From positions 1 through 40,121 of the forward strand of contig JAGGIK010000013.1 of assembly GCA_024103515.1 (NCBI GenBank): 40,121 bases of DNA, given 5' to 3'. The stretch's first letter is position 1. The number at the start of each line of letters is the position of its first letter. Both the position numbers and the translations under genes were made by a program. This document shows positions 28,874-39,711 of the stretch, in pieces. Source of the stretch: Snodgrassella sp. (lineage in GTDB: Bacteria > Pseudomonadota > Gammaproteobacteria > Burkholderiales > Neisseriaceae). The notes beneath the pieces were generated by a model. The model saw only the letters and a list, made by a program, of their open reading frames with translations, searched no databases and was not told the origin of the DNA.

Positions 28874-31570
28874 CTAAAACCATTGTCCGAAGCGGCGAAT
28901 ATACCAGCGTTTCACTATCTGAGTAACAACGCAGTAGCAGCCCAGTGTGAGTACCAGCCACGGGAAATATTGCCATGGTAGTGCAGTCAGGCCAATCCAG
29001 TTGCTTATCGGTGAAAACGGAATACAAATTCCAATTGCCATAATCAACCCTGTCATCAGCAATACCGGCAATGCAGCAGTGCTTTGCACAAACGGAATTT
29101 TGCGTGTACGCAACATATGCACCACCAGCGTTTGTGACAGCAATCCTTCCACAAACCAGCCGGAATGAAACAAATTCTGTACTTCTGGAGTATTGGCATG
29201 GAATACATACCACATCAGCGCAAAAGTGCTGATATCAAAAATAGAAGAAATCGGACCAATAAACAGCATAAAACGACTGATATTAGAAACATCCCATTTA
29301 CGCGGTTTGCGTAAAAACTCATCATCCATTTTATCCCATGGCAATGAGAGCTGGGAAAAATCATATAGCAGATTTTGTATCAACAACTGAATGGCCAGCA
29401 TAGGTAAAAATGGCAAAAAGGCACTGGCAAATAATACTGAAAATACATTACCAAAATTGGAGCTGGCCGTCATATTCAGATACTTAATAATATTACCAAA
29501 AGTTTCACGCCCTTTAATCACGCCCTCTTCCAGCACCATCAGGCTTTTTTCCAGCAGAATAATATCGGCGGATTCCTTAGCAATATCTGTGGCGGTATCT
29601 ACAGAGATACCGACATCCGCATCACGCAAAGCAGGAGCATCATTTATACCATCACCCAGAAAACCAACGGTATGACCATTCTCCTGCAATAGGCGAATAA
29701 TGCGCGATTTCTGTAAAGGAGTCAGTTTGGCAAAAACAGTATGCTGTTGCAACAATGATTTCAGCACATCATCACTCAAACCCTCTATATCGCTGCCCAA
29801 TATAGGCAGACCGGCTTCGATGCCCACTTCATGACAGATTTTTCGAGTCACAATAGCATTATCACCCGTTAATACTTTTACCGTAACACCATTCTGACTT
29901 AAAGCGGCAATAGCTTGTGCGGCACTGTCTTTAGGTGGATCAAGAAAAGTCAGAAAGCCATACAACGTGAGCTCCGTCTCATCTGCAACAGCATATTGAG
30001 ATTTTTGCATTTCTGGCTGGATATACTTAGTACCAATCGCCAGTACCCGAAATCCTTCTTTATTGTAGCTTTCAGTGAGAGCCAGTAATTGCTTGCGCCG
30101 AGACGCATCAAGGGGGAGAAACTGTCCTTGTTCATAAACACAGCTGGAAATCGCCAGCATTTCTTCCACGGCACCCTTACAAATAAGCACATGACGTTGT
30201 TGCTCATCACGAAGAACAACAGATAAACGTCGACGCACAAAATCAAATGGCAATTCATCTATCTTCTGGAAAGCACTACCATTAATATAAGCCCTATTTT
30301 CTGGCTCCTGCGCAAAGCGAATAATCGCCTTGTCCATCAGATTTTTCATCCCACTTTGATGAGAGCTGTTCAGCCACGCCAGTTGTAAAACCTCATGATC
30401 ATTATTACCATTTATATCAGTATAATGCTCTAGAATAATTTTATCCTGTGTGAGCGTACCAGTTTTATCAGTGCACAAAACATCCATCGAACCAAAATTC
30501 TGGATAGCACTCAGGCGTTTTACCACCACCTTACGCCGCGCCATCGCCATGGCACCCTTAGCCAGATTGGCGCTTACTATCATCGGCAGCATTTCCGGTG
30601 TCAGCCCCACAGCTACCGCCAGAGCAAACAAAGCCGCATCACCCCAGTCGCCCTTAGTAAAGCCATTAATCAGCAGCACTACCGGCACCAGAATCAACAT
30701 AAAGCGAATCAGCAAATGGCTGACACTGTTAACACCACGATCAAATGCTGTTTTACCGCGTGTACCAACAATAGATTTAGCCAGCGAACCAAAATAAGTA
30801 TCATTACCAGTGGCCACTACCACCGCCTTAGCAGTACCACTGACAATATTGGTACCCATAAAGCATATATTTTCCGCATCTAACGGGTTAGCCGATTGAA
30901 GTGCTGTTTGCGATTTAGAACCAGCCGATACTATCGAACCAAGCGTATCTGATTTTTCTACCGGAATAGATTCCCCTGTAAGCACAGCCTGACTGATAAA
31001 CAAATCACGCGATTCAATTAGACGTACATCGGCAGGCAACATATCTCCTGCAGACAGAAAAATAATATCACCCGGAACCACCTCTTTAATCGGTACTTCC
31101 AGCTGTTGGCCATCCAAATCATCATGACTACGCCGCAATACCGTAGCAGTAGTACTGATCATCGATTTTAGTGCCTGGGCTGCCTTATTAGAGCGGTATT
31201 CTTGCCAGAAGCTAAGCACACCACTAAGCAAAACCATCACCAGAATAATAACAATACCACTCAGGCTGGTTTCCTCCCCATTACGAAGAGGAATCAGATA
31301 ATCGGAAAAAAAACTCACACCCGCCAGTGCAAGCAACACAAAAATAAAGGGATTTTTAAATGCCAGTAATAATTGCAGCCAAGCAGAAGGAACTTTGTCG
31401 TGCACGACATCATTGCTGCCAAAACAAGCTAATCTTTCCTTAACATCGTTTTCGGTCAGACCATACAAACTGGTTTGTAAATTGGATAGCGTTTTTTCAA
31501 GACTGTTGCGAGATTCCAGTACAGCCTTAATGGTCACTGGTTGATTTGTAACTTTTTTTAATTTTTTCAT
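28874..31570 (-). CDS. mgtA: Magnesium-translocating P-type ATPase
   Basis: MgtA is a P3B-type ATPase that imports Mg2+ across the inner membrane. The protein (898 residues) contains the N-terminal cation ATPase domain, paired membrane helices, the TGES loop (QAVLTGESIPVEKSD), the membrane motif GLTPEMLPMIV typical of MgtA/MgtB, the phosphorylated Asp in LCTDKTGTLTQD, the nucleotide-binding ICKGAVEEM, and the hinge VGFLGDGINDAPALRDADVG. A final block of six helices includes LLIQNLLYDFSQLSLPWD. The ATG at 31570 (MKKLKK) has GAGG 8 bases upstream; the longer frame to 31591 overlaps a leader stem. It is preceded by an unusual leader (next entries) that probably couples expression to Mg2+ or translation status. 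Confidence 0.95.
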   Translation of the reverse strand: MKKLKKVTNQPVTIKAVLESRNSLEKTLSNLQTSLYGLTENDVKERLACFGSNDVVHDKVPSAWLQLLLAFKNPFIFVLLALAGVSFFSDYLIPLRNGEETSLSGIVIILVMVLLSGVLSFWQEYRSNKAAQALKSMISTTATVLRRSHDDLDGQQLEVPIKEVVPGDIIFLSAGDMLPADVRLIESRDLFISQAVLTGESIPVEKSDTLGSIVSAGSKSQTALQSANPLDAENICFMGTNIVSGTAKAVVVATGNDTYFGSLAKSIVGTRGKTAFDRGVNSVSHLLIRFMLILVPVVLLINGFTKGDWGDAALFALAVAVGLTPEMLPMIVSANLAKGAMAMARRKVVVKRLSAIQNFGSMDVLCTDKTGTLTQDKIILEHYTDINGNNDHEVLQLAWLNSSHQSGMKNLMDKAIIRFAQEPENRAYINGSAFQKIDELPFDFVRRRLSVVLRDEQQRHVLICKGAVEEMLAISSCVYEQGQFLPLDASRRKQLLALTESYNKEGFRVLAIGTKYIQPEMQKSQYAVADETELTLYGFLTFLDPPKDSAAQAIAALSQNGVTVKVLTGDNAIVTRKICHEVGIEAGLPILGSDIEGLSDDVLKSLLQQHTVFAKLTPLQKSRIIRLLQENGHTVGFLGDGINDAPALRDADVGISVDTATDIAKESADIILLEKSLMVLEEGVIKGRETFGNIIKYLNMTASSNFGNVFSVLFASAFLPFLPMLAIQLLIQNLLYDFSQLSLPWDKMDDEFLRKPRKWDVSNISRFMLFIGPISSIFDISTFALMWYVFHANTPEVQNLFHSGWFVEGLLSQTLVVHMLRTRKIPFVQSTAALPVLLMTGLIMAIGICIPFSPISNWIGLTALPWQYFPWLVLTLGCYCVVTQIVKRWYIRRFGQWF

Positions 31571-31583
31571 AAACAGTACCTCA

Positions 31584-31630
31584 CCGACCATGCTGTTTCC
31601 CGGTCGGCAGATACTGTTAACCCGGAAACA
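31584..31630 (-). promoter_or_regulatory. mgtA leader with two mutually exclusive stems
   Basis: In the minus-strand RNA, UGUUUCC directly after the leader-ORF stop (31624-31630) pairs with GGAAACA (31594-31600), plus 3 more pairs after one mismatch (stem A). CCGACC (31602-31607) pairs with GGUCGG (31584-31589) (stem B). The two share bases 31602-31604, so both cannot form at once. The 3' arm of stem B is directly followed by the UGAGGU ribosome binding site of mgtA. A ribosome on the leader ORF would block stem A and allow stem B. The pairing is read from sequence; the switching is inference. Confidence 0.6.
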
Positions 31631-31693
31631 TCAACGGCCTAGTTGCAGTTGTGGTATCAATAAAATAAACGGTCGACTCGAATCTTCTTCCAT
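31631..31693 (-). CDS. Putative mgtA leader peptide (20 aa)
   Basis: A 20-codon ORF begins at the ATG at 31693 (GGGAA about 8 bases before it) and ends with TGA at 31631, some 60 bases before mgtA. It starts MEEDSSRP and ends PQLQLGR. Enterobacterial MgtL is a 17-codon leader beginning MEPDPTP whose acid/proline start destabilises ribosomes at low Mg2+ and so turns on mgtA. Here the length, the place, an acid-rich start and prolines are shared, but the sequence otherwise differs. It is not in standard gene catalogues as far as I know. The role as a sensor peptide is inferred. Confidence 0.5.
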   Translation of the reverse strand: MEEDSSRPFILLIPQLQLGR

Positions 31694-31724
31694 TGTTTTA
31701 TTCCCGGTTAAATAGTTAGAAACC

Positions 31725-31739
31725 TAATGCACAGCATTA
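31725..31739. promoter_or_regulatory. Inverted repeat upstream of the mgtA leader
   Basis: TAATGC-ACA-GCATTA is a perfect 15-bp inverted repeat about 30 bases upstream of the leader ORF, where the mgtA promoter should lie. It may be a regulator-binding site; no regulator can be named. Confidence 0.35.
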
Positions 31740-31809
31740 AATTCACCAATACTGAAACAGACATAACAGATATAAACTGCCCAAACAGACAGCCATATTT
31801 CAGCAAGAT

Positions 31810-31834
31810 AGCGTTTATACGTGGTTATAACGCT
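31810..31834. promoter_or_regulatory. Second inverted repeat between mutY and mgtA
   Basis: AGCGTTTATA and TATAACGCT are inverted around a 6-base centre with one unpaired T. It lies about 115 bases upstream of the mgtA leader ORF. It could be an operator or the 3' end hairpin of the upstream transcript. The gap 31694-32024 holds no gene otherwise. Confidence 0.3.
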
Positions 31835-32024
31835 AACGTCAATTAAATTTACGCTATCATACGCTTCGAACAATAAAAAATAACAACATTCACAAGATAA
31901 CCACAAAATAATGCCAAATTAATAAAACAGCCTTTAAAAATTAACCATACCTTAGCCACAGTCGGCTTAGAAACCACAGGATAAAAATAGCCCTAGATTG
32001 CATGCATAAATTAAAAGAAAAAAA

Positions 32025-33077
32025 TTAAAACAAATTACCCTGTGCAGCACTTAAATAAGCATGCAAAGGTCTTGGAAGACCATAATCAGCCAGATTTTCT
32101 GGCAAAACCCACTTTCCAGCGATCGATAGCGAATTAACTGATGACTCAGCATTTATCAGTGCAGAAAAAGGTAAAATTTGTAATTGACGATGGGTCAGGC
32201 GATGACTAATTTCAGCACCTTCGTTTAACTCATTTGCCGATAAACCAAATTCAGCCGCCAATTCATATAATTGTTGCAAACTGTCTAGACACGGTACACA
32301 CCACAAACCGCCCCATATGCCCTTAGCATTTCTTTTATGTAAAAAGAGTGCACCTTCAGCATTTCGCATAATCAACCAAAACAGCACCAGATTTTTTATC
32401 GTAGTAGTCGTTTTCTTGCGTGGTAATTCACAAATACGATTTTGAGCACGAGCCAAACAAATATCGCTCATAGGACAGGTTGCACAAATAGGATTGCTAC
32501 GTTTACATACAGTAGCACCAAGATCCATCAAACCCTGAATATAAGCCGGCATATCGGCCGCATCTTCTGGTAATAGAGATTCCGCAGTACGCCAAAGCAG
32601 TTGTTCAAACGTCTTATTGGTTGGATGACCATCCAAAGCAAGCACACGACACAAAACACGCTTAACATTGCCATCCAGAATCGTCTCACGTGCATCAAAA
32701 CAGAATGCCGCAATTGCCGCTGCCGTACTGCGCCCTACCCCGCACAACGTTTGTAATTCAATCCGGCTGCGCGGAAATTTGCCCGCAAATTCAGTTACCA
32801 CCTGTTTGGCAGCCTTATGCAGATTGCGCGCACGACTGTAATAGCCCAGCCCCTGCCACAAGCCCATTACCTCATCTTCATCGGCAGCAGCCAACGCCTG
32901 CACGTTTGGAAAAGCAGCCACAAACCGCGGATAATAATCCAACACTGTCGCAACCTGTGTCTGCTGTAACATAATTTCCGACAGCCACACCAGATACGGC
33001 TCACGCGTCTGCCACGGCAACCCGTGCCGGCCATACATTTTTTGCCAAAAAACCAACCGTAATGCAAAACTTTTCAT
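32025..33077 (-). CDS. mutY: Adenine DNA glycosylase MutY
   Basis: MutY removes adenine mispaired with 8-oxoguanine. The 350-residue length equals E. coli MutY. The catalytic Glu lies in WLSEIMLQQTQV (Glu34) and the helix-hairpin-helix is LCGVGRSTAAAIAAF, followed by ETILDGNVKRVLCR with the catalytic Asp. The iron-sulfur cluster ligands are CKRSNPICATCPMSDIC (C-x6-C-x2-C-x5-C). A C-terminal Nudix-like 8-oxoguanine-recognition domain follows (RNAKGIWGGLWCVPCLDS, ISHRLTHRQLQILPF). The ATG at 33077 is preferred over the preceding TTG, but no ribosome binding site is clear. Confidence 0.96.
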   Translation of the reverse strand: MKSFALRLVFWQKMYGRHGLPWQTREPYLVWLSEIMLQQTQVATVLDYYPRFVAAFPNVQALAAADEDEVMGLWQGLGYYSRARNLHKAAKQVVTEFAGKFPRSRIELQTLCGVGRSTAAAIAAFCFDARETILDGNVKRVLCRVLALDGHPTNKTFEQLLWRTAESLLPEDAADMPAYIQGLMDLGATVCKRSNPICATCPMSDICLARAQNRICELPRKKTTTTIKNLVLFWLIMRNAEGALFLHKRNAKGIWGGLWCVPCLDSLQQLYELAAEFGLSANELNEGAEISHRLTHRQLQILPFSALINAESSVNSLSIAGKWVLPENLADYGLPRPLHAYLSAAQGNLF

Positions 33078-33546
33078 CAACGTATCTGTTCATTCATACC
33101 GGCATTACCCTCAATCTGCAACAAACAACAAAAGAATAACCGGCATTACCCAAAAGCAAAAATGCAGCCAAATCTTAGCCGCATTCAACTGAAAACCATT
33201 TTGACCAAACCAGATAGGCCTGTAAAACAATAAAAGCCACCTATCCGAATACAATTGCAATTAAATTATAAGCCAACACAAAAAAACAACAAATCAGTAA
33301 ATAGTCCTAATAATCTCAAATGTATGAATACACAGAATATCACATAATAAAACAACACCAATCAGATTAACTCCTTAACCCACTGAAAACACACAATAAC
33401 CATCCATTTTCATCAAAAAAAACCGGCCAAATAGGTTCAAGAATTAATCATCACCAAAGTAATATCATTATTTAATTTACCAAAAAACACGCACAAAGGA
33501 ACCGACTTATAATTGAAAACCCCATAAAATACATAAAGACTTGCTA
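33078..33546. other. Divergent intergenic region mutY/lipoprotein
   Basis: No gene is seen. The sequence is A-rich on the plus strand. ACCGGCATTACCC occurs twice (about 33099 and 33140), a 13-base direct repeat with a 41-base period near the mutY start; its meaning is unknown. Confidence 0.35.
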
Positions 33547-34779: not shown

Positions 34780-37700
34780 TTATAGATTGAAGCCTTCCTT
34801 GATTTCGCGCCACGATAATACTTTGAATGTTATCGGTGCACAGAGAACATTTTTGATATCACTTTTATCAATCAAGCCTTCGGTGGTACCCACTACCGGC
34901 AGTTTATCCATACAGTGATCTGGTGAGGGCGGTGTACTGCCCAGCGGCAGCCAGTTGCCTGTACCACCGATATTATTAATGGCTTCCGATAAAATGTCAA
35001 AACCCACCAGTCCTTCTTTGCTGACAATCGATAACGGACTGTCTTTATCAAACACAATATGTGGATCGTTTTCAGATAAGCCGGAACCTGTGCGCAGACT
35101 AAACTGCATCATGCGGGTTTTTGCCGATACATCCTGTGTAAAGATCTCTGAACTACATGGATCTTTTTCCTTGGCCGAAATCACGCCTTTTTTCACCTCA
35201 TAAATCCGTGTCGGTATGATTCCGGTTGTCAGTAAACGGGAGAAATTGGAAACAACTCGCTCACCATCGGTTGGGTCAAGGTCGATATACCAGCCTTTAT
35301 AGCGTACCGGATCAAATTTATTCTTACTTATGCTGCGGTATTGACCATTTACGCTGATGGTTTGCGGCAATAGGTCTTGTTTCGATACCTGCGCAGTGCT
35401 ATCAGTTACATTATAGTCGTCATAGATACCATAAATTGCCTGCTGATCACGGTTGTCTAAATCCTGATCATATAGATCACTACCGGTACCAAATACGACT
35501 ACCAGTTTCTGACTACCCGATCCATTCTGATCTGCTTTTAATACTAGCGGTGCTGTGGTGATCGGCCGATTCGCAGTAAATATTTTCACTCCTCTCCATT
35601 TACTCGGATCCGGATCGCGGATATCGAAGCGGAACAGATTGCCGCCATAATCACCTGCATAGACAATATCTGCTACATTATCGCCATTAATATCAAAGGC
35701 AAACGGACTGGATAAGCCACCTCTACCGCCTTCAGCAACGATTTTCTGGATTAAATCGCCCTTGTTGCCCAGTGGTTTATAGCCATCTGTTCCTACATCC
35801 GCACCCAAGGCATTATATACATATAATGCTGATTCTGCAGACTCTTTTCTGGCTGTATCGGTAGCTAGGGTATCTGAGTAGTTGTAGCCGTTGCTGATAA
35901 AGGCTGCCGCCACAATATTATGTTTATATGAATTAACATCTGCCCTGCTATTACCATAATTGACGCGAATTCGAGCTACCGCCGGCATGCCGACTGTGTA
36001 GCCTAATTTGTTATTGTTTCCAGCAGGGGTACGGAATAGCTGCAGATCCTTATACCAGTCGGGCGAGCTCATATTATCTACGCCGATATTCTGCTGGCTG
36101 AGTATATCCTTGCCGCCAATATTGATGGCAAATGCTCCGCGGCCGCCCTGCCCCATGGTTGACACCATAAAGGTTTGTTTCACACCATCACCACGGTCAT
36201 CTGTCTGTTGTACCACCATGCCACCATTCAACAGATAGTGGTGTGGCTTGGTTGTAAACTGACCATATTGATTATCGGTTAGATCCTTAAAGTAATGCTG
36301 AGCCAGATCGCTGTTGTCATTACTTTGCCGCTGCATATTTAAAGGCATGTAGTTAAATTTCAGGTCATAAGGTTTGGCTTTATCTTTAGTGGCACCAAAT
36401 ACATATACCATACCATCATTGGCGGAGGTGATCAGGTATTTCTGGTGGCGCATGCCTTCGAGTTGATCGCCAATGGAAATTAAAGGATTATTAAGAATAT
36501 CGCCAATATTGCGACTGTTGCCAAAATTTGCCACATCAGTACGATTGCGATAGTCTAGCACAAACCAGCTATTGGATATGACTGTTTTGATTGCATCGTC
36601 ATCTTTGGCCCGAGCCAGCCAAGTGAGCAGGCCATCGCGCCATTCGGTTTTATTATTGTTTTTCTCGGGATCTAGATTAGAACCTATTGTGGGATCCGGT
36701 CGATTATCTTTGATTTTAAATGCGGTATTGTCCAAGCCGTTGACAGTTAGATCCGCCGAATGTAAATAACTTTGTGTACCATCATTGAGCACCAGTTGCC
36801 GATTGGCATAACTTGGCTGCACGGCACAAGAGGACGGATCTTCGCCACGGTCATGTATGCAGATCTGACTGCTCCAGCTACCGGTATCAACCTTTGCGGT
36901 GACCGAAGTGTCACCTTCTGACGTACTGGAAAGTCCTACTGTGGCGGCAACAGTATCAATTATAGAAACAGCGGTGCTGGATTCATAAATTTTGCGGAAA
37001 ATATCGTCAAAAGACGTTAATAATTCATCATAACCATTTCCGATATCATAAAAACGACCATCCGGATTGTTGACCGGATCATGCTTACTTACCGGCGTAG
37101 CAGCAAAATATAAAATGTGAGCGCTGTCTGCATCAATTTCTGAGTTCCACCCAGTGTTTTCCTTATATTTCAGTCCCATACCAATGGTAAAGGTTTCGGC
37201 GGTCTGGGTATACGGCCGGCCAGTTTGCGGATTAATGGCACCCCAGGCTTCGCCGGCATTATCTTTTTCTCTGCGTTCCAGGGGTGATTTACTGGTACAG
37301 AAAAAGTCAGGACTATTCACTGCCGGCACTGCTAAGTATCTTCCATATTCTACGGGATCGCTTAGTTGCTGTTGGTAAAGCGGCGGCTCGAGAGCAGCCT
37401 CGGATGCACCGCTCGGCAGTGTGAATTCTTCGTACTTCTTATATATTTTGTCGGTATAATTTTGTTTGTACTCTACAACTCTCATACAGGAGCTATAATA
37501 ATCATTTTTATAGATATAAGGACCAAAATTCTTGGTAGCTAGACGCTGGGTGTAGTAACCGAGAGTGGCTTCAGTAGGACTGACCCTTAAGTGAGCGATT
37601 TTGCTATCGCAATAGGGCATGCCTTTTTTGCTTGCGATATAACAATATTTTTGGTTAAAGTTGCGATATATATCTCCGTAAGGAGTTGCCATCCGATCCG

Positions 37701-38793
37701 CATCAAAATACCCATCCCAGACAGCATCGGGCTTGAGATGCAGCGGAGGTTTTAGCTCTAAGTTACTCTCCCACCAACTTTTTGGAAACAAAAAACCACC
37801 ATCACCTGAATCAAGATCCCCACCGGAAACAATATCTTTTAAATCATACACCCGGTGGCTAGCCCTACGATATGTATACCTATTAAGATCTCGGCCATTG
37901 GAAAGAATCACTAAAAAAGATTTCTGGCAGCGATATTGTTGTCCTTTCATGACCACATCTTTCGCTATTTTAGGTAACGCATCCATTAGTTTCAACTCGT
38001 TGCCTTCACTCATTCTGGGAGTCAATAAATCAATATTGCGCAGCAATTGATTTAATTCACCAGCGGAGGTTCCATCATAATATTTGCTTGGAATCTTAAG
38101 TGCTTGCTCGGCATCCGCACTCAGTTTAAAAAAATTCTTATCGTACTGGAGCCCTCCGTTATCATTATGAATATGAGGCATGCCCCAGTGATCGAATTGT
38201 GTTTGGAATTGGCTTCTTACCTGTATAGCGGTATTAAAATTTGATACGGGCAACACGGCAAAGTGCATTTTATCGCGGTATTTTTGGATTAACTCCTTTA
38301 GTACCAGTTGCACGGTACGTATGGCGGTGCGCCCTCCGGGTTTACAATCATTGCGGAAATGCCGGGCAATACGATGACCAAAAGCATCTGTATCACATAA
38401 TCCTGATCCTCTGCATTTTCCTCCCGATCGCGGACCATATTTCCGTTCTTCTTCCTGCAGTACTCTGTCCAATTCTGCAGAACTATCAAATTGAGTCCAC
38501 CACAATTCATCATTACCTGTTTCTTTTACCCAAGTATCATACCCAGAATGATAAATGTATCGACGGCACATGATACCGATGGGAGCCGGAGTCTGAACAA
38601 CTTCGCCCATCATCTTATGATTATCAATAACCAAAGCCACATTTGGCTTCACATCATGGGATAAGGCAGTGGTTTTTTTATTTTGGTAAATTAAGGGCAA
38701 ATCAGCAAAAATACTGGGGGAGGCAACGGTCAAGGAAGGCTGCGAAAGTAAAATACTGGCCAGTAAAGTTAGGGCGTGTGGTTTGCGGTGCAT
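34780..38793 (-). CDS. PilC/PilY1-type type IV pilus tip adhesin
   Basis: PilC/PilY1 proteins sit at the pilus tip and control extension, adhesion and DNA uptake. From the ATG at 38793 (MHRKPHALTLL) a signal peptide ends near ASPS, giving 1337 residues. The N-terminal half carries a von Willebrand-like region: NVALVIDNHKMMGE replaces the usual DxSxS metal site, and VILSNGRDLNRY follows. The C-terminal half is the PilY1 beta-propeller, with YLITSANDGMVYVFGAT, STMGQGGRGAFAINI, the calcium loop DINGDNVADIVYAGDYGGNL and VVFGTGSDLYDQDL. The frame extends to 38838 but lacks a better start. No poly-G phase-variation tract is present near the 5' end, unlike Neisseria pilC. It stands alone; other pilus genes are not in the window. 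Confidence 0.93.
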   Translation of the reverse strand: MHRKPHALTLLASILLSQPSLTVASPSIFADLPLIYQNKKTTALSHDVKPNVALVIDNHKMMGEVVQTPAPIGIMCRRYIYHSGYDTWVKETGNDELWWTQFDSSAELDRVLQEEERKYGPRSGGKCRGSGLCDTDAFGHRIARHFRNDCKPGGRTAIRTVQLVLKELIQKYRDKMHFAVLPVSNFNTAIQVRSQFQTQFDHWGMPHIHNDNGGLQYDKNFFKLSADAEQALKIPSKYYDGTSAGELNQLLRNIDLLTPRMSEGNELKLMDALPKIAKDVVMKGQQYRCQKSFLVILSNGRDLNRYTYRRASHRVYDLKDIVSGGDLDSGDGGFLFPKSWWESNLELKPPLHLKPDAVWDGYFDADRMATPYGDIYRNFNQKYCYIASKKGMPYCDSKIAHLRVSPTEATLGYYTQRLATKNFGPYIYKNDYYSSCMRVVEYKQNYTDKIYKKYEEFTLPSGASEAALEPPLYQQQLSDPVEYGRYLAVPAVNSPDFFCTSKSPLERREKDNAGEAWGAINPQTGRPYTQTAETFTIGMGLKYKENTGWNSEIDADSAHILYFAATPVSKHDPVNNPDGRFYDIGNGYDELLTSFDDIFRKIYESSTAVSIIDTVAATVGLSSTSEGDTSVTAKVDTGSWSSQICIHDRGEDPSSCAVQPSYANRQLVLNDGTQSYLHSADLTVNGLDNTAFKIKDNRPDPTIGSNLDPEKNNNKTEWRDGLLTWLARAKDDDAIKTVISNSWFVLDYRNRTDVANFGNSRNIGDILNNPLISIGDQLEGMRHQKYLITSANDGMVYVFGATKDKAKPYDLKFNYMPLNMQRQSNDNSDLAQHYFKDLTDNQYGQFTTKPHHYLLNGGMVVQQTDDRGDGVKQTFMVSTMGQGGRGAFAINIGGKDILSQQNIGVDNMSSPDWYKDLQLFRTPAGNNNKLGYTVGMPAVARIRVNYGNSRADVNSYKHNIVAAAFISNGYNYSDTLATDTARKESAESALYVYNALGADVGTDGYKPLGNKGDLIQKIVAEGGRGGLSSPFAFDINGDNVADIVYAGDYGGNLFRFDIRDPDPSKWRGVKIFTANRPITTAPLVLKADQNGSGSQKLVVVFGTGSDLYDQDLDNRDQQAIYGIYDDYNVTDSTAQVSKQDLLPQTISVNGQYRSISKNKFDPVRYKGWYIDLDPTDGERVVSNFSRLLTTGIIPTRIYEVKKGVISAKEKDPCSSEIFTQDVSAKTRMMQFSLRTGSGLSENDPHIVFDKDSPLSIVSKEGLVGFDILSEAINNIGGTGNWLPLGSTPPSPDHCMDKLPVVGTTEGLIDKSDIKNVLCAPITFKVLSWREIKEGFNL

Positions 38794-39711
38794 AATTTTG
38801 CCAATCCTATTGTAATTTGTCAAGTTAATCAATTCCATTAAACAAATTCTTTATTATTATTAATAATAGCTATTTTTTTTTACACAATCAATGCATTTTG
38901 TATCATATTTCATTGTCAAATTATCAATTTAGCATAATATGTTTGTTTTTTGTTAAATAGATGATATAGTTACAACTTTGATCAATTACATGTGTGCTTA
39001 TGGTCAGTTTGTTGTGTTTGTGGTCAATTTATTGTTTAATTATTTAATCTATGACAAAGTATTTGAAGTTTTTGGTATGCTGCTTTTCATTACAAATGTA
39101 AGTGGGCAATCAGTGGAAGGATGTTAATCAGGCTTTTAGTTAAGTATTGATCAATCAGATGCTTTCAATGGTTTAGGCGCGGTGGGTGTTTGTATGGTAT
39201 GGTCGTATCTTTACTAGGCGGATTGGAGATGTAGGCAAGTTCATATCGGCATACTATTTGCGCGGAAAGTGATGCTTGCAGAATTAGTAATGATTTGCCT
39301 GTTATTTTAGTATAGGCTAAGGCATATTCTGACGGCAGCTAAGTGGTCAAAGCTTAAAGCTGATTTACCGATTAAGTGGATTTGGGCCGCATCGGTTAAG
39401 CTGTTTTTTCTGACGCGTTCAATGACCGGCGATAGAATCGACGTTTGGCCATAATGACGTTTGATCCGATCCAACGGTTTTATCTATGCGTGTACGCTGC
39501 TAATCATTTTTATTCAAAGGTGATTCTGCATCCGTCGTTCTTCTCATTCTTGCATGCTTTTACATTTTAAGCTTGCATTTGGATTAGAGTCTTAATGAGG
39601 CGTTAAAGCTGTTTCCTAGGGAATCCAAGCTTTTTTATTTCATTATGCTGTTTAAACTGAAAGTTATATTGTTAAGCTGTCGTCAAAACCAAACAAACTG
39701 CTCGTTTGTAC
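38794..39711. other. pilC upstream region
   Basis: About 900 bases without an intact gene. The first 200 bases upstream of pilC are extremely AT-rich and include the 20-base-period repeats listed separately. At 39.3-39.55 kb both strands carry open stretches of about 40-55 codons (plus: LTAAKWSKLKADLPIKWIWA; minus: IKPLDRIKRHYGQTSILSPV) with no start or family, possibly a decayed gene. Confidence 0.35.
39002..39035. repeat. Two 14-base direct repeats, 20-base period, upstream of pilC
   Basis: GGTCAGTTTGTTGT (39002-39015) and GGTCAATTTATTGT (39022-39035) match at 12 of 14 positions and start exactly 20 bases apart, about two helical turns. They lie some 210 bases upstream of the pilC start and could bind a dimeric or tandem regulator on one face of the DNA. 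Confidence 0.45.

Follow-up and report, generated by a model that had tools for sequence, protein, structure and literature searches.

A conserved leader precedes the gene of an MgtB-type Mg2+ transporter in Snodgrassella, and it is likely to be a variant of the translation-abortion attenuator known from mgtQ in Salmonella. The leader itself is real and conserved, and it is probably functional. It was found in a 40,121-nucleotide stretch of Snodgrassella DNA, here called the window, and the case is built on its anatomy and conservation, on the family of the downstream gene, and on a modelled dependence of its fold on ribosome position. The principle itself is already known; what is new lies in the host and its leader layout, and in the wider spread. 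A literature search whose coverage left most subscription journals outside found nothing on this leader.

The locus and its transporter

The genus from which the window comes, Snodgrassella (Neisseriaceae), inhabits the bee gut. The transporters of the loci named S. alvi and S. communis are 90–91% identical to that of the window. The transporter gene starts with ATG at 31570, preceded by a good Shine-Dalgarno sequence (SD), and the leader lies between this gene and mutY (Table 1). The leader is about 240 nt long if transcription begins near 31807.

Table 1. Window coordinates of the leader elements and of the genes on either side.
Feature	Position	Strand	Support
mutY, gene upstream of leader	32025..33080		
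Predicted sigma-70 promoter, TTGACG-N17-TATAAA; expected transcription start ~31807	31814..31842	-	11/11 leaders
Possible basal helix, UUGCUGAA with UUUCAGUA, enclosing the variable region	31750..31805	-	consensus fold
Hairpin E, just 5' of the mini-ORF	31720..31744	-	pairing, covariation, fold z -4.0
Region 1, the mini-ORF SD, AACCGGGAAUA; pairs with region 2	31699..31709	-	11 leaders and the window's own fold
Mini-ORF, 20 codons, MEEDSSRPFILLIPQLQLGR then stop; acid start	31631..31693	-	start, frame, stop, conservation, acid-start count
Region 2, overlapping the stop codon of the mini-ORF; partner of region 1 or 3	31619..31632	-	
Region 3 as paired in helix 2:3 (stem A, extended)	31592..31604	-	
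Hairpin 3:4 (stem B, extended), 18 pairs including the transporter SD GAGG	31572..31618	-	z -5.6
MgtB-type Mg2+ P-type ATPase, 898 aa	28874..31570	-	NCBIfam NF011702 1596.7 bits, TIGR01524 1401.5 bits; tree

The gene had been labelled mgtA in an earlier note on this DNA, but it is of the MgtB type. In a midpoint-rooted tree of 42 proteins the Snodgrassella transporter falls among the MgtB-type proteins, and the MgtA-type proteins are split off by a 100/100 branch. Of two paralogues in one Salmonella genome, the one with an mgtQ-like leader ORF shares 67% identity with it and the other 56%; the leader ORF of the latter, MDPEPTPLPRWRVFLFR, we take to be MgtL-like. The leader ORF of the 67% paralogue reads MDIPEHTK, 8 codons with Asp2 and Glu5, matching the description of mgtQ. 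Homology to MgtL had been the initial assumption and was given up after the paralogue search and the tree.

In the same tree the Snodgrassella transporter is sister to proteins of the Orbaceae (96/99), for which bee guts are a known habitat too. At the cut-off used, the gene is present in 15/83 Neisseriaceae genomes, of which 11 belong to Snodgrassella and 4 to a second genus, g4. On a simple reading, the transporter would have been acquired by transfer from a gammaproteobacterium. A search for the PhoQ sensor domain matched 0/14 Snodgrassella genomes, and among 14 control genomes only E. coli matched.

Leader and transporter occur together in the same 11/14 Snodgrassella genomes, and both are absent from G074 (60% complete), G077 and G078. 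A DNA search of the 83 Neisseriaceae genomes gave 32 genomes with a match at E ≤0.1, and only in 11 Snodgrassella were the matches strong (~1e-53 or better). An RNA model, R1, used 10 of the 11 leaders; the other, L010, is a near-copy of L009. With strict filters its one match among 300 genomes of the order was to the window's own genome, and when both strands of 35 of 163 loci were searched it matched only L032, the sole Snodgrassella locus included. The system is not spread across the Neisseriaceae: at the cut-off used 68/83 genomes lack such a transporter, and the RNA was found only in Snodgrassella.

Elsewhere in the window, a PilC-like type IV pilus tip adhesin is encoded at 34780-38838 (-), its score of 257.9 of 350 bits lying under the NCBIfam cut-off.

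Conservation of the mini-ORF

A 20-codon ORF with an upstream GGGAA had been proposed, and both are present. GGGAA ends 7 nt before the ATG of this mini-ORF, whose SD is weak (3 matching bases), and the stop codon lies 60 nt from the transporter ATG. Alignment of the leaders found the start, frame and stop in 11/11 Snodgrassella genomes that carry the gene. The mini-ORF alone, among 839 ATG ORFs of 8–60 codons on both strands of the window (nested starts counted separately), has acidic residues at all of positions 2–4. Across the 11 genomes the peptide follows the pattern MEEDSS[RL]PFILL[IK]xQLQ[LQ]GR. The acid/proline character claimed for its start holds for MEED and Pro8, each invariant in 11/11, but not for the second proline, Pro14, which is kept in just 4/11.

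Among the 11 leaders, all from the single genus Snodgrassella, 54/63 columns of the mini-ORF are invariant. Codon windows of 63 nt in the transporter gene have at most 49 invariant columns, and 0/882 windows reach 54. Mean pairwise identity is 98% in the mini-ORF SD region, 96% in the mini-ORF and 93% between its stop and the gene, as compared with 77% in hairpin E, 61% in the variable 5' region and 85% in the transporter gene (65% at its third codon positions). The variable columns of the mini-ORF are distributed 2, 4, 3 by codon position. This spread shows no coding-type bias, suggesting that the mini-ORF is conserved at least partly for its RNA.

Architecture of the leader

Both hexamers of the predicted promoter are identical, with no gaps between them, in 11/11 leaders. 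A consensus promoter scan returned 0 promoters at this site; the scan accepts only T as the final base of the -10 hexamer, and the site has A there. Downstream, 7 of 9 pairs of the possible basal helix are retained in 11/11 leaders, and since the helix shows few changes it has little covariation support. Hairpin E is 94.2% paired over 121 cells (0/500 shuffles as high), and 3 of its pairs are changed on both sides (26/500 shuffles as many). Its covariation score was reached by 6/500 shuffles, and folded alone it was matched by 0/200. This hairpin has the best covariation of the leader; protection of the 5' end and binding of a regulator are possible roles.

The window holds 3 candidate intrinsic terminators, with 1.4 expected. 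One is a weak terminator-like site inside the leader at 31794-31775 (-), with 8 pairs of which 3 are G-C; it was set aside because it falls in the variable region. Rfam at gathering cut-offs gave two tRNAs and nothing else in the whole window, and at E ≤5 it gave a single sRNA match in the leader (E 2.5), far below the cut-off of that family. Identity with an Rfam Mg2+ riboswitch or sensor was rejected, since no curated family fits.

The earlier note had described two stems, A and B, competing for the same bases. That competition stands as helix 2:3 against helix 3:4, but a third helix, 1:2, which joins the mini-ORF SD to region 2, had been overlooked. Stem A is longer than claimed: 31632-31620, including part of the stop codon, pairs with 31604-31592 in 12 pairs around a 1x1 mismatch, and 11 of these form in the window. 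Stem B has 18 pairs (31618-31601 with 31590-31572) instead of 6, and contains the transporter SD rather than touching it. Helix 1:2 can form in two registers, 31709-31701 with 31627-31619 or, shifted, 31707-31699 with 31630-31622. Nine pairs are made in one register or the other in 9/11 leaders and eight in G072 and G073. In G079 and G080, where region 1 is changed, nine pairs still form in the first register; the other leaders make eight pairs there, and in the second register they make nine, or eight in the case of G072 and G073.

Pairing amounts to 93.9% of 132 cells in 2:3 and 98.0% of 198 cells in 3:4. Compensatory changes were found in both stems, one double-change pair in each, at counts that shuffles also reach: U-A to G-U in 2:3 (G072, G073; 209/500 shuffles) and G-C to A-U in 3:4 (G079; 56/500). 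The covariation score of 2:3 was reached by 7/500 shuffles. In helix 1:2 the only double change is C-G to U-A, seen in G079, and 77/500 shuffles have as many. When partners were slid by 1–3 columns, pairing dropped for every helix, least for 1:2 at -1 (85.9% vs 90.9%). Folded alone, 3:4 has -25.2 kcal/mol and 2:3 has -18.1 kcal/mol (z -3.7), and 0/200 shuffles were as good in either case; the stretch 31560-31740 has z -2.7, with 1/200 shuffles as good. Covariation in the switching helices 1:2, 2:3 and 3:4 is thin, and support for the helices is consistent but not strong.

An in-frame ATG at 31591 (-), with GGGAAA upstream, lies in the loop and stem of 3:4 and is kept in 11/11 leaders. Because 3/5 changes between 31591 and 31570 are non-synonymous, this ATG is probably not the transporter start.

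The hairpin at the gene bears on an alternative in which full translation of the mini-ORF would expose a Rho site and stop transcription before the transporter, burial of the SD being secondary. The acid start of the mini-ORF resembles MgtL, as do the ORFs before the mgtA paralogues of the Salmonella and Klebsiella loci, which are presumably MgtL-like. In such ORFs before mgtA, drop-off at EPDP is tied to Rho control (PMC11282234). Here, however, the gene is not of the MgtA type, the mini-ORF has no EPDP, and an 18-pair hairpin buries the SD right at the gene; moreover the precedent with the same layout, mgtQ, affects translation only (PMC8092293). MgtL-like control is therefore unlikely.

Proposed mechanism and modelled ribosome positions

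In the attenuator that we favor, region 2 would pair with the mini-ORF SD (1:2) when no ribosome is bound, and 3:4 would bury the transporter SD, leaving the gene OFF. Loading of a ribosome at the mini-ORF would mask region 1 and release region 2. If the ribosome dropped off or slowed in MEED, free region 2 could capture nascent region 3 (2:3), which would block 3:4 and turn the gene ON. If the ORF were completed, the ribosome would cover region 2 at the stop codon, 3:4 would form and the gene would be OFF. Early drop-off would become more frequent at low Mg2+, and the pump would thus be made when Mg2+ is scarce. The proposal thus supposes that the mini-ORF is translated, that ribosomes drop off at EED, that Mg2+ is the signal and that 2:3 is captured during transcription.

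The 11 leaders were folded with the bases held by a ribosome blocked, and each helix was scored by one pair. With no ribosome P(3:4) was 0.999 and P(2:3) 0.000 in 11/11 leaders. With a ribosome at the mini-ORF start of the full-length RNA, P(2:3) ranged from 0.000 to 0.916 (0.029 in the window, 0.000 in G079, 0.916 in G068) and exceeded 0.5 in 6/11, a tally that takes in G072 and G073 with identical values. Placing the ribosome at the stop gave P(3:4) of 0.999 in 11/11, 2:3 being excluded there by construction. A ribosome at codon 7, which leaves region 1 free, gave P(2:3) ≤0.001 in 11/11, suggesting that the ON state needs the start itself to be occupied. When region 1 was blocked, 2:3 was 0–3.5 kcal/mol above the best fold in 10/11 leaders and 6.8 above it in G079; when region 1 was free, 2:3 was 6.5–15.6 kcal/mol above the best fold.

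At equilibrium with a ribosome at the start, P(3:4) was 0.97 in the window's leader and 0.999 in G079. Because both favor 3:4, their ON state would need capture during transcription. When the RNA stopped short of region 4, P(2:3) was 0.96–1.00 in 11/11 with a ribosome at the start, as compared with 0.00–0.97 without a ribosome and 0.00–0.99 with a ribosome at codon 7. Helix 2:3 was the best fold 20–23 nt before its loss in 10/11 leaders and was never lost in G069.

In the first model, openness of the transporter SD in the 11 leaders was 0.20–0.24 with no ribosome and 0.20–0.34 with a ribosome at the start; a simple equilibrium switch was set aside, as SD openness alone moved little. Forcing 2:3 raised openness from 0.26 to 0.41 in the window, and from 0.25–0.39 to 0.35–0.54 over the 11 leaders. 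SD closure in the window is not special when compared with shuffles (openness 0.20 against 0.33 ± 0.22 in controls, 30% of which were as closed). As modelled, these small shifts and the shuffle result tell against a clean two-state switch. The other 24 acid-uORF leaders showed no consistent SD closure, the automatic choice of start and SD being poor in several of them. The models nevertheless suggest that ribosome position sets the direction of the switch as proposed. The earlier expectation, in which completion of the ORF forms stem B while a ribosome lost early on leaves stem A in place and the start open, is partly backed, by conservation and by the direction seen in modelling. At equilibrium the window's own leader keeps 3:4.

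Plain translational coupling would have finishing ribosomes melt 3:4 or restart, so that the ORF simply promotes the gene. The distance from the stop to the transporter ATG would bring a terminating ribosome near the hairpin. The modelled ribosome at the stop, however, leaves 3:4 intact, and coupling leaves the conserved acid start, region 1 and region 2 unexplained. We consider it quite unlikely.

Acid-start uORFs upstream of other transporter genes

Upstream ORFs (uORFs) were counted as acid-start if they had an ATG, 6–60 codons, at least 2 acidic residues in positions 2–6, at least 3 Asp/Glu/Pro in positions 2–8, and an SD match of at least 4. The loci surveyed were the best-matching relatives, 80 of 234 from one search and up to 30 in two further searches. 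They were thus not sampled at random, and within a genus many of them are nearly the same. L032-L035 and L057, whose leaders were already in the Snodgrassella group, and L126, with a partial gene, were omitted.

By this rule acid-start uORFs precede the mgtB-type gene in 28/40 other Gammaproteobacteria, 6/7 of the alphaproteobacterial group (L071 counted in it) and 3/3 g4 Neisseriaceae (two nearly identical; a fourth, partial, omitted). In these 50 loci the reverse strand gave 0/50 and shuffles 0.0–2.1%; over all groups the reverse strand gave 0 in each and shuffles 0–2.5%. The rule was also satisfied by 1/3 other Burkholderiales of the MgtB clade and by 2/2 mgtA. It was satisfied by 0/23 Orbaceae (L036-L056, L058, L091), the sister group in the transporter tree, 0/2 Alcaligenes, 0/3 Mycolicibacterium and 0/26 other Burkholderiales genes. 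Snodgrassella passes only when an SD match of 3 is accepted (11/11; reverse strand 0, shuffles 3.6%), a relaxation that in the Gammaproteobacteria gives 3/40 on the reverse strand and up to 9.3% in shuffles.

Several of these loci deserve mention. In g4 (L123, L124, L125) a uORF of 40–44 codons starting MDDDPRPLIA stands before the mgtB-type gene, and the leader RNA of these three loci gave no match to the Snodgrassella RNA model. A uORF starting MNDDSYPPIQP precedes the mgtB-type gene of L127, from another family of the window's order. The uORF MDDDSSRWLCAV stands before the mgtB-type gene both of Pseudochrobactrum L075 and of L071, a contig filed as Bacillus subtilis SK6B4; the L071 assembly is perhaps mislabelled or mixed. 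MDDDSSRWLCAV and MEEDSSR share a beginning, which may reflect either descent or convergence. Many of the Orbaceae loci examined have a conserved reading that ends ..LEPPSCI or ..LEPPSCL plus stop about 200 nt upstream of the gene, and this is perhaps the end of another gene.

The survey also weighs on whether the mini-ORF is translated at all. If it were not, its conservation would come from RNA structure alone and its acid start from chance, and the spread of variable columns over codon positions and the weak SD would fit. Yet frame, start and stop are kept in 11/11 leaders, and mgtB-type genes are preceded by acid starts more often than the reverse strand or shuffles would give; an untranslated ORF is quite unlikely. 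Direct Mg2+ sensing, in which the SD would be hidden by a Mg2+-dependent pseudoknot of 2:3 with the outer pairs of 3:4 and the ORF is just a landing site for ribosomes, can be drawn on paper since the 3' arm of 2:3 lies largely within the 3:4 loop, but the geometry (stems of 10–12 pairs, short loops) looks strained, no Rfam family fits, and an acid start that is invariant here and recurrent in other leaders would be needless, making such a sensor the most improbable of these alternatives.

A broader reading is that self-aborting uORFs with acid starts are a cis-acting sensor of MgtB genes across the proteobacteria and, in an SD-armed form, the sole Mg2+ sensor of the gene in Snodgrassella. We offer it tentatively, as a possibility that is more doubtful than the attenuator itself. 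In that reading the uORF's own SD, as one arm of the switch, would let ribosome loading itself set the switch. If the attenuator works as proposed, control by drop-off at acidic codons, known from enterics, would extend to a distant gut symbiont in which PhoQ was not detected, and such uORFs would accompany MgtB-type pumps across three proteobacterial classes. The leader offers a natural and compact system for testing whether Mg2+ can be reported by drop-off alone.

Comparison with known systems

The mgtL leader of mgtA in E. coli and Salmonella works through intrinsic ribosome destabilization. Like mgtL, the Snodgrassella leader ORF has an acidic/proline start and precedes a Mg2+ P-type ATPase gene. 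Unlike mgtL, it has no acid-proline alternation, and mgtL serves the paralogue MgtA, via Rho-dependent termination (PMC11282234). As in trp-type attenuation, the position of a ribosome on a leader ORF would choose between alternative hairpins, but here by early abortion instead of stalling, and the last hairpin hides an SD rather than forming a terminator. The comparison of trp-type attenuation with mgtQ is drawn in PMC8092293.

The closest precedent is mgtQ, an 8-codon ORF before Salmonella mgtB in the mgtC-mgtB intergenic region (Choi et al. 2021, PMC8092293). As described in that paper, mgtQ forms stems 1:2, 2:3 and 3:4, with 3:4 over the mgtB ribosome binding site (RBS). Translation alone is affected, and Asp2 and Glu5 are required; stem and Asp/Glu mutants were made. 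In a leader of the mgtQ type, acidic codons are expected to reduce translation of the uORF and increase that of the transporter, with a dependence on L31. According to the same paper, mgtQ also occurs in Erwinia, Yersinia and Serratia, and mgtB of Brucella is preceded by a similar ORF.

Snodgrassella differs from mgtQ, as described there, in several respects. Its mini-ORF has 20 codons instead of 8 and a weak SD, and its region 1 is the mini-ORF SD, whereas region 1 of mgtQ consists of ORF codons. Helix 3:4 is more stable than 2:3 in Snodgrassella (folded alone, energies as given above), whereas mgtQ has -12.26 kcal/mol for 3:4 and -16.4 kcal/mol for 2:3 (PMC8092293). The host is a betaproteobacterium, and the gene has its own 5' leader behind a sigma-70-like promoter. 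A position between mgtC and mgtB was not found in Snodgrassella, where mutY is upstream. That position may not define the mgtQ type, since PMC8092293 itself describes another genus in which an mgtQ-like ORF precedes an mgtB that is not next to mgtC.

Other features are shared. An MgtB-type transporter lies downstream in Snodgrassella as well, and the ORF is short with acidic residues near its start, MEED being kept in 11/11 leaders. Helices 1:2 and 3:4 are exclusive of 2:3, with 3:4 over the RBS, and all can form in 11/11 leaders with few breaks. The earlier note had called this control analogous but apparently unrelated. Set beside what PMC8092293 describes, it instead shares both the 1:2 / 2:3 / 3:4 layout and the acid start with mgtQ.
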